Of a DNA stretch of 50,931 bases, positions 1-4,119 are shown one piece after another (position 1 is the first letter of the stretch; each line of letters opens with the position of its first letter). The position numbers and the translations under genes were made by a program. Source of the DNA: Limnohabitans sp. (GTDB lineage: Bacteria; Pseudomonadota; Gammaproteobacteria; Burkholderiales; Burkholderiaceae_C); the NCBI GenBank assembly GCA_021300495.1, contig JAJTDK010000021.1:1-50931 (forward strand), written 5' to 3'. The notes below the pieces were generated by a model, which worked only from the letters and a program-made list of their open reading frames with translations, was not told the origin of the DNA and did not search any database.

Positions 1-1455
1 TACAAAGGGAGCAATGGCTGCGTCAACCCAACACCAAGCGGGGCCCATCAAACATGCCGTCTGGCTCAGTTTGACATTCAGTTGGCTTAGGAACAATGCA
101 CCCTGTTGTCTGTTGGCCAATCCATCGGGCAGGTCGTAGCGATTGGGGTATTTGTAGCGATCTAAGTGGTGCTTAAATTCGCTGTCGCATTGTTGCACCA
201 GCGCCACCGCATCTCGGTGCAAGGAAGTGCCTGCAGTCGACCAAGACTGTGGGTCACTTTGCTGTAAAGCCCAATTAAGGATGTCCAAACTTTCTTCGAG
301 CACTTGGTCCTTCAAAACCAAAACCGGCACAGTGCCTTTGGGCGACACTGCCAACATGCTTGCAGGTTTTTGTGACAACGCAATTTCGCGAATTTCACAG
401 CGTATGCCGCTTGACAACAACGCCAATCTGGCACGCATGGCGTAAGGGCAGCGTCGGAAAGAATACAAAATAGGTGCATCAACTGGTAACAAGGCAGCAA
501 CCCTTTCTTGACGTTGTGGCGTGCCAATGTGATTGGTATGACGCGCCTTGGCAATTTCCCATTGTTTTTGTCTTTCCCGTGCGCTGTTCTTTTGAACCTC
601 GCTGGTGTGATCATGACACCGTGGGCAACTGACGCCCAACTCAAACATGTCTGATGCTTTGGCGCCAGGTGGCAAGGGTTCACGACAAGCACGGCACAAC
701 TCATGGGGGCCCGGTGTCAAGCCATGACCCACAGACACTCGCTCGTCAAACACAAAGCACTCACCCTCCCACAGGCTTTTCTCTGGGGGGACAAGCTCTA
801 GGTATTTAAGAATGCCGCCTTGCAAATGATAGACATCTTCGAACCCATGTTCCAACATCAAAGAGGTTGATTTTTCGCATCGGATACCTCCAGTGCAAAA
901 CATGGCCACTCTTGGCTTCTGCCCATTTTTTGCCTCTAAGACTTTCGCGTGCTTGACCCAGTCAGTCAGTTGCGAAAAGCTTTGTATCTGTGGATCGACG
1001 GCGCCTTTGAAGCTGCCAATTTCAACCTCGTAATCATTGCGCGTGTCGATCACCACCACATCTGGTGCAGAAATAAGATCGTTCCAATCTTCTGGTTTGA
1101 CGTACTGGCCCACTCGCTTGGTCGGGCTGATGCCATCGACACCCAGCGTGACAATTTCTTTTTTAAGTCGAACTTTCATGCGATGAAAAGGCGCTTTGTT
1201 TGAAACAGACTCTTTGTGCTCTAAGTCGGCCAGCTTGGGATCTTGTCGCAAGTAGGCCAGCACCGCATGCACATCTTCTGGCACACCCGCAATCGTGCTG
1301 TTGATGCCTTCACGCGCCAACAATATCAAGCCCTTGACGTTGTGCGCTTCGCAAAATGCCAGCAAGGCAGCACGCCGATCTGCATAGTCAGGCAGATCAA
1401 CAAACTTGTAAAAGGCTGCAGTCAAAAAAGTAGTTTCAGTCGCATTCAAGGTCAT
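1..1455 (-). CDS. trhO: tRNA uridine(34) hydroxylase TrhO fused to a glutathione S-transferase-like domain (3' end outside window)
   Basis: The frame is open from ATG at 1455 to base 1 (485 codons, no stop), so the C-terminus is missing. Residues about 1-310 are a TrhO/UPF0176 protein: an N-terminal ferredoxin-like part, then a rhodanese domain with the active-site loop C187-TGGIR-C193, then a segment with CxxC...CxxC cysteine pairs (CRAC and CPRC). TrhO hydroxylates U34 of some tRNAs to 5-hydroxyuridine. From about residue 325 a second module starts, with CPYA at 336-339, a later TVPVLVL strand carrying the cis-Pro and an ESLDIL motif, as in the thioredoxin-fold half of a glutathione S-transferase. 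A helical C-terminal half follows. E. coli TrhO is about 350 residues, so the GST part is an addition. It is divergent from ggt. Identity of the first half is secure; the role of the second is unknown. Confidence 0.88.
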   Translation of the reverse strand, partial: MTLNATETTFLTAAFYKFVDLPDYADRRAALLAFCEAHNVKGLILLAREGINSTIAGVPEDVHAVLAYLRQDPKLADLEHKESVSNKAPFHRMKVRLKKEIVTLGVDGISPTKRVGQYVKPEDWNDLISAPDVVVIDTRNDYEVEIGSFKGAVDPQIQSFSQLTDWVKHAKVLEAKNGQKPRVAMFCTGGIRCEKSTSLMLEHGFEDVYHLQGGILKYLELVPPEKSLWEGECFVFDERVSVGHGLTPGPHELCRACREPLPPGAKASDMFELGVSCPRCHDHTSEVQKNSARERQKQWEIAKARHTNHIGTPQRQERVAALLPVDAPILYSFRRCPYAMRARLALLSSGIRCEIREIALSQKPASMLAVSPKGTVPVLVLKDQVLEESLDILNWALQQSDPQSWSTAGTSLHRDAVALVQQCDSEFKHHLDRYKYPNRYDLPDGLANRQQGALFLSQLNVKLSQTACLMGPAWCWVDAAIAPFV

Positions 1456-1552: not shown

Positions 1553-3313
1553 ATGATGTTTCAAAGTTCTTTCATCTCTCACCCTCGTCTTAGTCAGAGG
1601 CTTTGCCTCATCTTTTCGCTGCTCAGTACCGCCGCTTTCGCTCAAAGCCCCTATTTTGAGATTACCCAAAAGCCGGCTCAGGTGGCTGTGACCACAGCCC
1701 ACCCCATGGCCACCGAGGCAGCACTCAAAATGCTTCAACAAGGTGGGTCTGCGATCGATGCAGCCATTGCAGCGCAACTGATGCTGGGGCTGGTTGAGTC
1801 ACAATCGTCTGGTTTAGGTGGCGGCACTTTCTTGATGCATTGGGATGCCGCTCAAAAATCACTGAGCAGCCTAGATGGCCTTGCCATTTCTCCTCAAAAA
1901 ACGACCGCCTCCCTCACCACCGATGTAGATGGGAGTCAACTTCCCTCTGCCTCAATGGGCCGTGGCGGCCGGAGTGCAGGCGTTCCAGGCACCCTGCCCT
2001 TGTTAGCCAAAGCGCACGCTAAATTTGGCAAATTGACCTGGCCAACGTTGTTTGTCCCGGCCATAGAGGCCGCCAGCAAGGGCTTTCCCATGCCGGCCTA
2101 TATGCATCAAATTTTGTCAGCGCCAACAGCCGCCAAAGATCACGCCGATATGTTGGCTTTGTATTTTGACGATGCTCAAAAAGTAAAGCCTGTGGGCACG
2201 CTCATTGTCAACCCCGACTATGCCAAGACGCTTCAAAGCATCGCCCTTAAAGGGCCCTCCGCAATTTGGGCTGATGGTGCCAGTACAGATTTTTTGGCTG
2301 CCGTTCAAAGGGGCTACAAGCCGTCTCTGATGACCGAAGAAGATTTAAAAAGCTACCCAGTCGAAGAACGTGAACCCCTGTGTGGTCCCTACCTGCGTTA
2401 CAGAGTTTGCGTCATGGCACCGCCTTCATTTGGCGGCGTGGTGGTTCTTCAAGTGCTGCAAATGTTGGCGGAAAAATCCAGCTTGGGCACTGACTTTAAT
2501 CAGCCCGAGTTTGCGCATGCCTTTGCCGAGGCCGGCAAATTAGCGCAAGTTGACAGGCATCGTTATGTGGCAGACCCTGCATTTTTCAAAGTGCCTGCCA
2601 AGGCCTTGGTCAGCCCGGCTTACGTCAAACAACGCGCAGCTCTGATTCAAACCAACACCCTGCCCAGTTATGGCCCTGGACAGCCAGAAGCCATGTTGGC
2701 TGAGGCATCAGGGCAGTCCATGGCACAAGGCGCAGCAGCACCTAACTCCGATGCAACCAGCCAATTGGCAGTGGTAGATGCACAAGGCAACGCAGTCAGC
2801 ATGACGACCACCAACAATTTGAATTTTGGTTCGCGCATCTTGGTCCAAGGTTATGTGTTGAACAATGCCATGACCAACTTCACCACATCGCCCAAACCAG
2901 GCGAAATAGCACCCAACAAAATGGAACCCCGAAAAAGACCTGTCACCTCCATGGTGCCGACCATGGTTTTTGACGAGGCAGGTCAATTGGTCACGCTAGG
3001 CGGATCGGCTGGCGGTGGACAAATCGTGGACTATGTTTCTGCCAACTTGGTTCGCATGTTGGCCAACCAATTAAGCCCCTTTGAAGCCCTGGCACAAGGG
3101 CACATATCAACGGCCCTCCCCAATCGAGTTCAACTTGAAAAAGGAACTTCAGCAGCCCAATTGGCCGAAGCCCTTCTGGCCAAGGGCCAAAAAGTTGAAG
3201 TCGTGCCCATGAACAGCGGCATGGGATTTTTAAAGCGCGCTGGCAATGGCTGGATCGGATCTGCAGATCCGCGAAGAGACGGTGTTGCTTGGGGCTTTAA
3301 CCCCAAACCTTAG
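1553..3313 (+). CDS. ggt: gamma-glutamyltransferase (secreted)
   Basis: This 586-residue protein is a Ntn-hydrolase of the gamma-glutamyltranspeptidase family, which cleaves glutathione and other gamma-glutamyl amides in the periplasm. Residues 1-30 look like a signal peptide (basic start, hydrophobic LCLIFSLLSTAAFA, likely cleavage after AFA). The autoprocessing nucleophile is probably T402 in DATSQLAVVD. E. coli has TTHYSVVD here, so the second Thr and the His are replaced by Ser and Gln, as in some divergent members. An SAGGG oxyanion-type loop follows in the small subunit. Two ATG codons (1553 and 1556) are possible and no strong Shine-Dalgarno is visible. The last 17 bases overlap the convergent phyH gene. 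Family assignment is firm; the substrate is not known. Confidence 0.9.
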   Translation: MMFQSSFISHPRLSQRLCLIFSLLSTAAFAQSPYFEITQKPAQVAVTTAHPMATEAALKMLQQGGSAIDAAIAAQLMLGLVESQSSGLGGGTFLMHWDAAQKSLSSLDGLAISPQKTTASLTTDVDGSQLPSASMGRGGRSAGVPGTLPLLAKAHAKFGKLTWPTLFVPAIEAASKGFPMPAYMHQILSAPTAAKDHADMLALYFDDAQKVKPVGTLIVNPDYAKTLQSIALKGPSAIWADGASTDFLAAVQRGYKPSLMTEEDLKSYPVEEREPLCGPYLRYRVCVMAPPSFGGVVVLQVLQMLAEKSSLGTDFNQPEFAHAFAEAGKLAQVDRHRYVADPAFFKVPAKALVSPAYVKQRAALIQTNTLPSYGPGQPEAMLAEASGQSMAQGAAAPNSDATSQLAVVDAQGNAVSMTTTNNLNFGSRILVQGYVLNNAMTNFTTSPKPGEIAPNKMEPRKRPVTSMVPTMVFDEAGQLVTLGGSAGGGQIVDYVSANLVRMLANQLSPFEALAQGHISTALPNRVQLEKGTSAAQLAEALLAKGQKVEVVPMNSGMGFLKRAGNGWIGSADPRRDGVAWGFNPKP

Positions 3314-4109
3314 GAAACAATGCGTCGTTCATTTCGGCACCGTCTGGCAAGCGTTTTTCCAAGTCGGTAAAAGGTGGCGACGTGACCCAGCGTCGCACAG
3401 CATGGCGTGCATCGTCGCCCAAGTATCTGGCAGAGAACACGCGCCTTCTTCTTTCAGGTCCAACACCGCTAGAAGCATGCAGAGACAACATCTGAAAAGC
3501 CACGCAATCGCCTGGCTCTAGGGCCCACGCGAGTTGCTTGTATTCATCGGGCTTGTCTTCAATTGATGGCAACTCAGCCAAACTTCCCTCTGGAAACCAT
3601 TTGGCTTGTTGGTCTCTAAACGTTCGAGGCATGTACCAGGTTCCCAAATGCGATTGCGCTACAAACCTGAGCGTGCTGGCCAAAGGCACAGGATCGACCG
3701 GAATCCAAAAACTCACGTTTTGGCGACCACTCACGTTGTAATAAGGTTGATCTTGGTGCCAAGGTGTTGCTTGTTGCGTACCAGGCTCCTTGACCAACAA
3801 ATGATCGTGATAAAGCCGCACGGTTTTTGACTGCATGAGTTGCGCCGCCAAATGGGGCAAGGTCGAATTCAATAAGATGCTTTGATAGCTTGGATTTGAG
3901 GGCCAGGTACAGAAGTCTTCAATGAAGCGCCCAGGATCCTCGGCCTGGCTGGCCACTTGTACCAAAGGACTTAAATGTGCCAGATTGTGTTCAATGCCTT
4001 GTTCGAGTGTTTGAATTTCTTGTGCGTTGAAAACACCGCGCAACACAACAGCACCCAAGCTCTGATAGCTCTCAATGGTTTCGGTCGTCAACACATGTGT
4101 TCTTGACAT
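3297..4109 (-). CDS. phytanoyl-CoA dioxygenase family Fe(II)/2-oxoglutarate oxygenase
   Basis: The product is about 270 residues and belongs to the PhyH family of non-haem iron oxygenases. The iron ligands can be read as H118-x-D120 (WHQDQPYY) and distal H211 (LSLHASSG), with the 2-oxoglutarate-binding Arg expected in RRRRVFSARY. ATG at 4109 is chosen because GAGGTG lies about 5 bases upstream; a GTG at 4118 would add three residues. It is the last gene of the unit that includes rsfS, rlmH and maf and begins about 10 bases after maf. The family includes hydroxylases of lipids, ectoine and small metabolites. Nothing here fixes the substrate, and its place behind ribosome-assembly genes may be incidental. 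Confidence 0.82.
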   Translation of the reverse strand: MSRTHVLTTETIESYQSLGAVVLRGVFNAQEIQTLEQGIEHNLAHLSPLVQVASQAEDPGRFIEDFCTWPSNPSYQSILLNSTLPHLAAQLMQSKTVRLYHDHLLVKEPGTQQATPWHQDQPYYNVSGRQNVSFWIPVDPVPLASTLRFVAQSHLGTWYMPRTFRDQQAKWFPEGSLAELPSIEDKPDEYKQLAWALEPGDCVAFQMLSLHASSGVGPERRRRVFSARYLGDDARHAVRRWVTSPPFTDLEKRLPDGAEMNDALFPKVWG

Positions 4110-4119
4110 AGAACTCACC

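Follow-up and report, generated by a model that had tools for sequence, protein, structure and literature searches.

Analysis of a 50,931-nucleotide stretch of Limnohabitans sp. DNA (contig JAJTDK010000021.1 of assembly GCA_021300495.1; the whole stretch is called the window below) indicated that a gene on its minus strand, at 1..1455, encodes the tRNA hydroxylase TrhO joined in one frame to a glutathione transferase (GST), an arrangement present in some freshwater bacteria. The fusion is confirmed as genuine, and the pairing of TrhO with a GST that has a cysteine in its active site (Cys-type GST) is well supported across genomes. The gene is tentatively read, at a little short of an even chance, as an O2-dependent hydroxylase of tRNA uridine 34 (U34) fused to a Cys-type GST that re-reduces the TrhO cysteine or supplies electrons. 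Since the same two genes are adjacent in many other bacteria, the GST may keep the hydroxylase running.

The window is C88, one of the 132 contigs of a fragmented genome with a completeness of 86% (G, C and L are our working labels for genomes, contigs and loci). It contains 485 codons of the fusion gene, and no stop of the fusion frame lies inside it because base 1 is the end of C88. The final 58 codons and the stop were located on contig C44, the end of which has 121 bases matching window positions 1-121 (113 identical), after which the same frame runs 58 residues to the stop. The complete protein obtained by joining C88 and C44 has about 543 amino acids, and the next gene after its stop, alpha/beta hydrolase-like, also adjoins the fusion in relatives.

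The single uninterrupted frame described in an earlier sequence-only reading was borne out on the minus strand (1455 to 1), with matches in both Pfam and NCBIfam, and the cysteines C187 and C193 and the motif CPYA at residues 336-339 lie where that reading had placed them. The TrhO part comprises residues 1-310 (526..1455, all features here being on the minus strand); this border is approximate, the TrhO equivalog NF001133 covering residues 13-244 and the standalone TrhO proteins of congeners mostly aligning to 313-317. The protein scored 319.4 bits against NF001133 (cut-off 170, profile 2-229 of 229), 242.5 bits against the sulfurtransferase model PRK05320 (NF003703), which is below the cut-off of 331, and 17.5 bits against Rhodanese_C, below the cut-off of 26.9. 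Within the TrhO part are an acylphosphatase-like UPF0176_N domain (residues 12-101, 1153..1422; PF17773, E 3.3e-28), a Rhodanese domain (residues 122-219, 799..1092; PF00581, E 3.7e-8) with the active-site loop C187-TGGIR-C193 (877..897), and a region of four cysteines in a CxxC...CxxC arrangement (C254, C257, C277 and C280; 616..696), a putative zinc ribbon. A linker of about 18 residues (about 311-328; 472..525), in frame in every fused relative read, leads to the thioredoxin-fold N-terminal domain of the GST (residues 329-401, 253..471; PF13417, GST_N_3, 330-401, E 5.5e-18), in which CPYA (439..450) contains the putative active-site cysteine C336. The helical C-terminal domain (1..252) is interrupted by the contig end and continues on C44; its GST-like nature, also proposed earlier, was upheld by complete relatives, GST_C_2 being matched above cut-off in the fusions L113 and L137 and slightly below it in L048, where GST_C was slightly above.

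Both halves were found in one stop-free frame in 13 of 36 genomes of the genus, the window's genome counted. The other 12 fusions are 69-95% identical to the window protein (in G008 the GST ends at a contig edge), and they rule out an assembly or frameshift artefact as the source of the fusion; the stop or frameshift between the halves that the sequence-only reading had named as refuting is contradicted by the same open architecture in all 13. All 12 congener fusions, like the window protein, have the C, T, G and R of the CTGGIR loop; the later comparisons of fused genes (substitution rates and internal starts) chose sequences by CTGGIR and are no independent test of the motif. Separate genes for TrhO (59-63% identity) and GST (51-57% identity) were found in 21 of the 36 genomes. 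Of the remaining two, a second TrhO-family match aside, G002 showed just a GST and G012 just a GST end at a contig edge adjoining the same hydrolase gene. Counts from the genus and family searches are among the matches listed, from which weak matches may be missing.

For nine pairs of fused genes, the ratio of nonsynonymous to synonymous substitution rates (dN/dS) ranged from 0.03 to 0.14 over the TrhO part and from 0.06 to 0.15 over the GST part; dS approached saturation in several of the pairs. Eight of them come from an initial set of 12, from which three were removed for saturated dS and one, L049/L048, for misalignment; the ninth is L010/L011. By a crude pattern, 10 of 20 fused genes have an in-frame TTG 14 codons ahead of the active cysteine with a purine-rich stretch upstream, and L049 lacks any in-frame ATG, GTG or TTG within 65 codons ahead of it. 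Some fused genes may therefore also produce the GST separately from an internal start, as far as such a pattern can suggest.

Named GTDB contigs were scanned by alignment of the GST half alone, and the best 80 of at least 591 relatives were analyzed. At 53 of these 80 loci TrhO precedes the GST on the same strand: in 47 it is a separate gene, and in 6 it is fused in frame, the fusions being on one cyanobacterial contig and on five named contigs of Comamonadaceae/Burkholderiales. The halves of the fusion L048 are identical to those of G003, and the two probably come from the same organism, judging by this identity. Among the 27 loci with no TrhO upstream, at least 1.5 kb of upstream sequence was present in 24 and not in 3. 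Linked pairs occur, among others, in Comamonadaceae, Alcaligenaceae, Methylobacillus, Sphingomonadales and Rhodospirillales, in one Xanthomonadales bin and at eleven cyanobacterial loci, the last being every cyanobacterial locus found in the scan. Fusions L113, in the cyanobacterium Aphanocapsa, and L137 (G245), in another genus of the family, rule out that the fusion is confined to one genus. The unfused loci encode GSTs with 47-60% identity to the GST half of G001.

The adjacent genes are often closely packed: an overlap of 1-32 nucleotides was found in 20 of the 47 pairs, and one of exactly 4 in 8 of these 20, the GST start being taken mechanically as the last ATG or GTG before the match. 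In G038, from another family, the ATG of the GST overlaps the TrhO stop as ATGA. Two genes are called adjacent here if TrhO precedes the GST on one strand, any small genes in between being disregarded; nominal gaps reach 516 nucleotides, and L099, L107 and L116 have nominal overlaps of 187-268 nucleotides. Every other neighbour family was confined to 6 or fewer of the 80 loci, frames antisense to TrhO or GST being set aside.

Linkage was also counted in even samples of 110 genomes each, by eye, with the window's genome included in the family sample and excluded from the phylum and order samples. TrhO was taken at E <1e-60 in the phylum sample, at E <1e-100 in the order sample and as the close TrhO type, including one contig-cut copy, in the family sample; GST matches may include paralogues. 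The phylum sample had 44 genomes with TrhO, 33 with GST and 21 with both, 3 of them linked (G106, G134 and G146), and the order sample had 11 with TrhO and 7 with both, 1 of them linked (G038); these linked genomes fall in four families. The family sample had 16 genomes with both genes, of which 9 were linked: the window's genome and G245 have the fusion, and G170, G196, G204, G228, G229, G243 and G255 have adjacent genes. The genes are unlinked in G013, G078, G169, G185, G242, G269 and G273. Because a genome has some thousands of genes, linkage at these frequencies is far above chance. A 744-residue frame in G134 that had been a candidate fusion was rejected, being two frames on reading, with the GST start several hundred bases past the TrhO stop.

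Two unusual arrangements were noted among the TrhO loci. In a single bin, L129 (G264:C237, 1293-3134, plus strand) joins TrhO in frame to a downstream P-loop kinase-like part, the matches of which to PRK, AAA and CoaE are all below cut-off. At G177:C52:176381-177821 a distant TrhO relative (42%) and a GST diverge on opposite strands, with their matches 73 bases apart, a possible third arrangement.

Trees of both halves were compared. In the GST tree, which has 109 rows, fused proteins cluster in one large Comamonadaceae group beside adjacent pairs of Rhodoferax and other hosts, and two fusions stand singly: L137, the linker of which includes an ET repeat, sits among Acidovorax-type adjacent pairs, and L113 lies within an otherwise adjacent cyanobacterial group. 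The fused state requires 3 changes on this tree when L033 (truncated), L082 and L108 are left out and 4 when they are included, and a single fused clade was mildly disfavoured (approximately unbiased test, p 0.034, the same three rows left out). The TrhO tree requires 4 changes and again places L113 and L137 among adjacent pairs; several of its long branches were flagged, it was built without L008 (fused by direct reading) and up to ten congener TrhO proteins, and rows L076, L099 and L122 were left out of its alignment. The adjacent rows L056 and L087 lie inside the large fused group on the TrhO tree and with standalone GSTs on the GST tree. The standalone TrhO proteins of congeners form a separate group on the TrhO tree, which suggests that more than the splitting of a single gene sets the fused members of the genus apart from the unfused ones. 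From these trees, neighbouring genes probably became joined on at least three separate occasions, and two of the fusions, L113 and L137, by their positions clearly arose among adjacent pairs.

Judged by its motif, the GST is of the Cys-type in its active site, as would be expected for a thiol reductase. The active cysteine is present in all 113 readable hits (CPYA in 109 and CPFA in 4; three truncated hits were unreadable), a count that includes five loci fetched twice and is partly circular, 74 of the 80 scan loci holding the search peptide that contains this cysteine. The cysteine of CP[YF]A was also present in all 34 distinct GSTs not picked by that peptide, 28 of them from genome searches and 6 from scan loci found via the other peptide. 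V51, P52 and S64, presumably residues of the glutathione site, are invariant in 63 aligned GSTs. The standalone GSTs with LYSFRRCP and LDRYKYP in Comamonadaceae, Alphaproteobacteria and Cyanobacteria belong to the same family as the fused half, from which they differ in having a gene of their own, downstream of TrhO in the 47 scan loci and apart from it elsewhere.

The GST family profile matched human GSTO1 (1.3e-16), SspA (1.5e-15) and a 2,4-D inducible GST (4top; 1.3e-14) in the PDB, and the L048 GST half is predicted (pLDDT 96) to adopt the complete GST fold, with Z of 21-23 to GST-fold chains. With the Omega class (human GSTO1-1, PDB 1eem) the family shares the cysteine of CP[FY]A in place of serine or tyrosine, a near full-length profile match and the predicted fold; the fused half differs in being bacterial and paired with TrhO, and SspA is nearly level with GSTO1 by profile and ahead of it by the single window sequence. 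The cysteine of GSTO1 forms a mixed disulfide with glutathione on reducing its co-substrate and is regenerated by a second glutathione (GSH) molecule, for which 2-mercaptoethanol can substitute (PMC3621891).

The 2019 discovery paper (PMC6599085) reported that E. coli TrhO takes the oxygen placed on the base from O2 and forms 5-hydroxyuridine (ho5U) at position 34 (ho5U34) in vitro. C200, T201, G203 and R205 are essential and C206 and G202 are not; by motif, C187 of the fusion corresponds to the essential C200 and C193 to the non-essential C206. The in vitro mix consisted of Tris, NaCl, MgCl2 and 10 mM 2-mercaptoethanol, tRNA conversion reached 75% with the enzyme in excess, and the main text makes no mention of FeSO4, ascorbate or NADPH. 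The mechanism of hydroxylation was left open in that paper and was still described as unresolved in a 2023 review (PMC10135228). E. coli TrhO (YceA, UPF0176) and the window protein share UPF0176_N, the rhodanese domain, the C-TGGIR-C loop and a score above the equivalog cut-off, but the domain legend of the E. coli protein gives Rhodanese and Rhodanese_C and no GST (PMC6599085), whereas the window protein has the GST in addition and Rhodanese_C below cut-off.

A plausible mechanism can be proposed, in which TrhO would use its one essential loop cysteine and O2 to form ho5U34. One oxygen atom would go to the base and the other to water, so that two electrons would be required from elsewhere and the cysteine would be left oxidised, as a sulfenate, a mixed disulfide or a glutathionylated residue. 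Because TrhO has no essential second motif cysteine, C336 of the GST would take over the oxidising equivalent by forming a mixed disulfide with glutathione, and a second GSH would then release glutathione disulfide; fusion would raise the local concentration of the reductase. The combination of one essential motif cysteine, a thiol as the sole evident reductant in the mix and a recurring Cys-type GST neighbour suggests that the GST resolves or re-reduces the TrhO cysteine with glutathione. The sequences show the fusion and its conservation, the recurrence of neighbouring and fused pairs and the conserved cysteine; on the proposed reading the GST would in addition bind GSH, reduce TrhO directly and be needed in vivo.

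The link of TrhO to a glutathione or thiol enzyme, raised in the sequence-only reading, is supported by the separate fusions and by same-strand neighbours in Alpha- and Betaproteobacteria, the Xanthomonadales bin and the cyanobacterial loci. The recycling of the cysteine that it also suggested fits the single essential cysteine and the 2-mercaptoethanol of the E. coli assay (PMC6599085), while the chemistry itself we infer. A more general form of the proposal, possible but held well short of an even chance, is that TrhO is a thiol-driven, cofactor-free oxygenase, that glutathione would be its physiological electron donor via the Cys-type GST as operon or fusion partner, and that wobble hydroxylation would thus be glutathione-dependent.

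Several observations weigh against a reductase role for the GST. An exclusive TrhO-GST partnership is not supported, as each gene often occurs without the other: 23 of the 44 TrhO genomes in the phylum sample have no GST match at 1e-25, and 12 of the 33 GST genomes have no TrhO (one has a more distant relative). Among 27 genomes of unlinked or cut GST loci, some of them incomplete bins, close TrhO was found in 7, only a distant relative (42-48% identity) in 12 and no TrhO-family match in 8. The GST therefore has uses apart from TrhO, and TrhO can manage without this GST. Outside the family, genomes with both genes mostly keep them apart (3 of 21 and 1 of 7 linked), and the 21 congeners in which TrhO stands alone carry the GST on another contig or far off (about 685 kb in one); the 53 of 80 linked scan loci do not represent a family-wide rate, since these loci were selected for high GST similarity. 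E. coli TrhO forms ho5U34 in vitro without any GST (PMC6599085).

The class of the GST half is a further point of this kind. The window protein alone matched SspA-like chains (2.9e-11 to 6.4e-10) ahead of GSTO1 (2.4e-6), and SspA is to our knowledge not a thiol enzyme; a fold search of the GST half gave near-equal scores for SspA, Tau, Delta and other GST classes. The model of the fused L048 protein has a pTM of 0.61 and supports no claim of contact between the domains; its linker region is the least confident inner part (pLDDT 82, 56 and 84 for residues 301-330 by tens).

The nearest rival to the reductase reading, somewhat unlikely in our estimate, is that the GST guards TrhO under oxidative stress, stripping glutathione from its active cysteine or repairing over-oxidation, and so couples wobble modification to the redox state. 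The genomic pairing and the cysteine active site speak for such a guard too, and the activity of E. coli TrhO without a GST (PMC6599085), like the presence of TrhO without a GST in many genomes, suits an accessory role; a guard, however, leaves the source of the two electrons unexplained by itself, and no other neighbour family, stress-related or otherwise, recurs at the 80 scan loci. This lack of a further recurring neighbour also counts against a role in persulfide handling, in which TrhO would be at least partly a sulfurtransferase and the GST would use or reduce glutathione persulfide or a protein persulfide. The name sulfurtransferase borne by the related model NF003703 speaks for that role, but the TrhO part in the window passes the TrhO cut-off and fails that of the sulfurtransferase model, and E. 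coli TrhO inserts oxygen from O2 (PMC6599085); we consider it distinctly improbable.

GST-like domains are also known to dock in translation factors and in tRNA synthetase complexes, and it is conceivable, if quite unlikely, that the GST half serves docking or dimerisation with no need of catalysis. SspA-like chains are the top PDB matches on the GST side of the window protein, SspA being an RNA polymerase-associated factor according to the title of 1yy7, and a cyanobacterial fusion has a weak Arc1p_N_like match (E 1.7e-4, below cut-off); if kinship with SspA is the truer one, docking gains weight. Conservation of the CP[YF]A cysteine in all 34 proteins not selected for it, from several classes and Cyanobacteria, argues in the other direction. 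Finally, the fusion might be a neutral join of unrelated neighbouring genes by loss of a stop, as the separate standalone forms in 21 congeners would allow; at least three separate joins, the neighbourhood in distant taxa and purifying selection on both halves make this very improbable.

No report of a TrhO-GST pair was found in literature searches, the scope of which did not extend to preprints and most subscription papers, and within the same scope no paper was found for the solved TrhO chain 9j5o. Fusions of yceA and trmR have been described in two Phytophthora species and in Phaeodactylum (PMC6599085); they also join TrhO to another enzyme of its pathway, but their partner is a methyltransferase acting on ho5U, whereas the partner here is a thiol-type enzyme. 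A recurrent partner of this type is a specific candidate for the reductant, or the resolving partner, that is missing from the account of TrhO, and the fused protein offers a one-chain test of the reductant idea. If the idea is true, tRNA wobble hydroxylation would be a glutathione-dependent reaction in these bacteria.

The genome context of the fusion was examined for other ho5U enzymes. Peptidase U32 is the family of TrhP, the other known ho5U34 enzyme; no peptidase U32 gene was found in the window's genome (86% complete) or in three complete fusion genomes (G001, G006 and G031), and one or two were found in each of three congeners lacking the fusion (G013, G033 and G035). In the fusion genomes tested, ho5U34, if made, would therefore rest on TrhO-type enzymes. 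No match to CmoB above cut-off was found in the window's genome and seven others.

Two genes lie between the fusion and maf in the window (1553-4118), which we take to be gamma-glutamyltransferase-like (1553-3313) and phytanoyl-CoA dioxygenase-like. The gamma-glutamyltransferase gene was dropped as a clue to glutathione, since maf adjoins the fusion in four congener fusions (L005, L007, L008 and L009); L006 shows only the dioxygenase-like gene.

A second TrhO-family protein is encoded at G000:C75 (L044; 5376-6185, plus strand), with 389.5 bits against NF003703, above its cut-off, and 222 bits against the TrhO model; it starts beside a gene that is presumably dnaE-like. Among the matches listed, such a second match (about 42-46% identity) was present in 12 of the 13 fusion genomes, all except G003, and in none of the 21 with a standalone TrhO, and its flanking genes were similar in the two genomes read.
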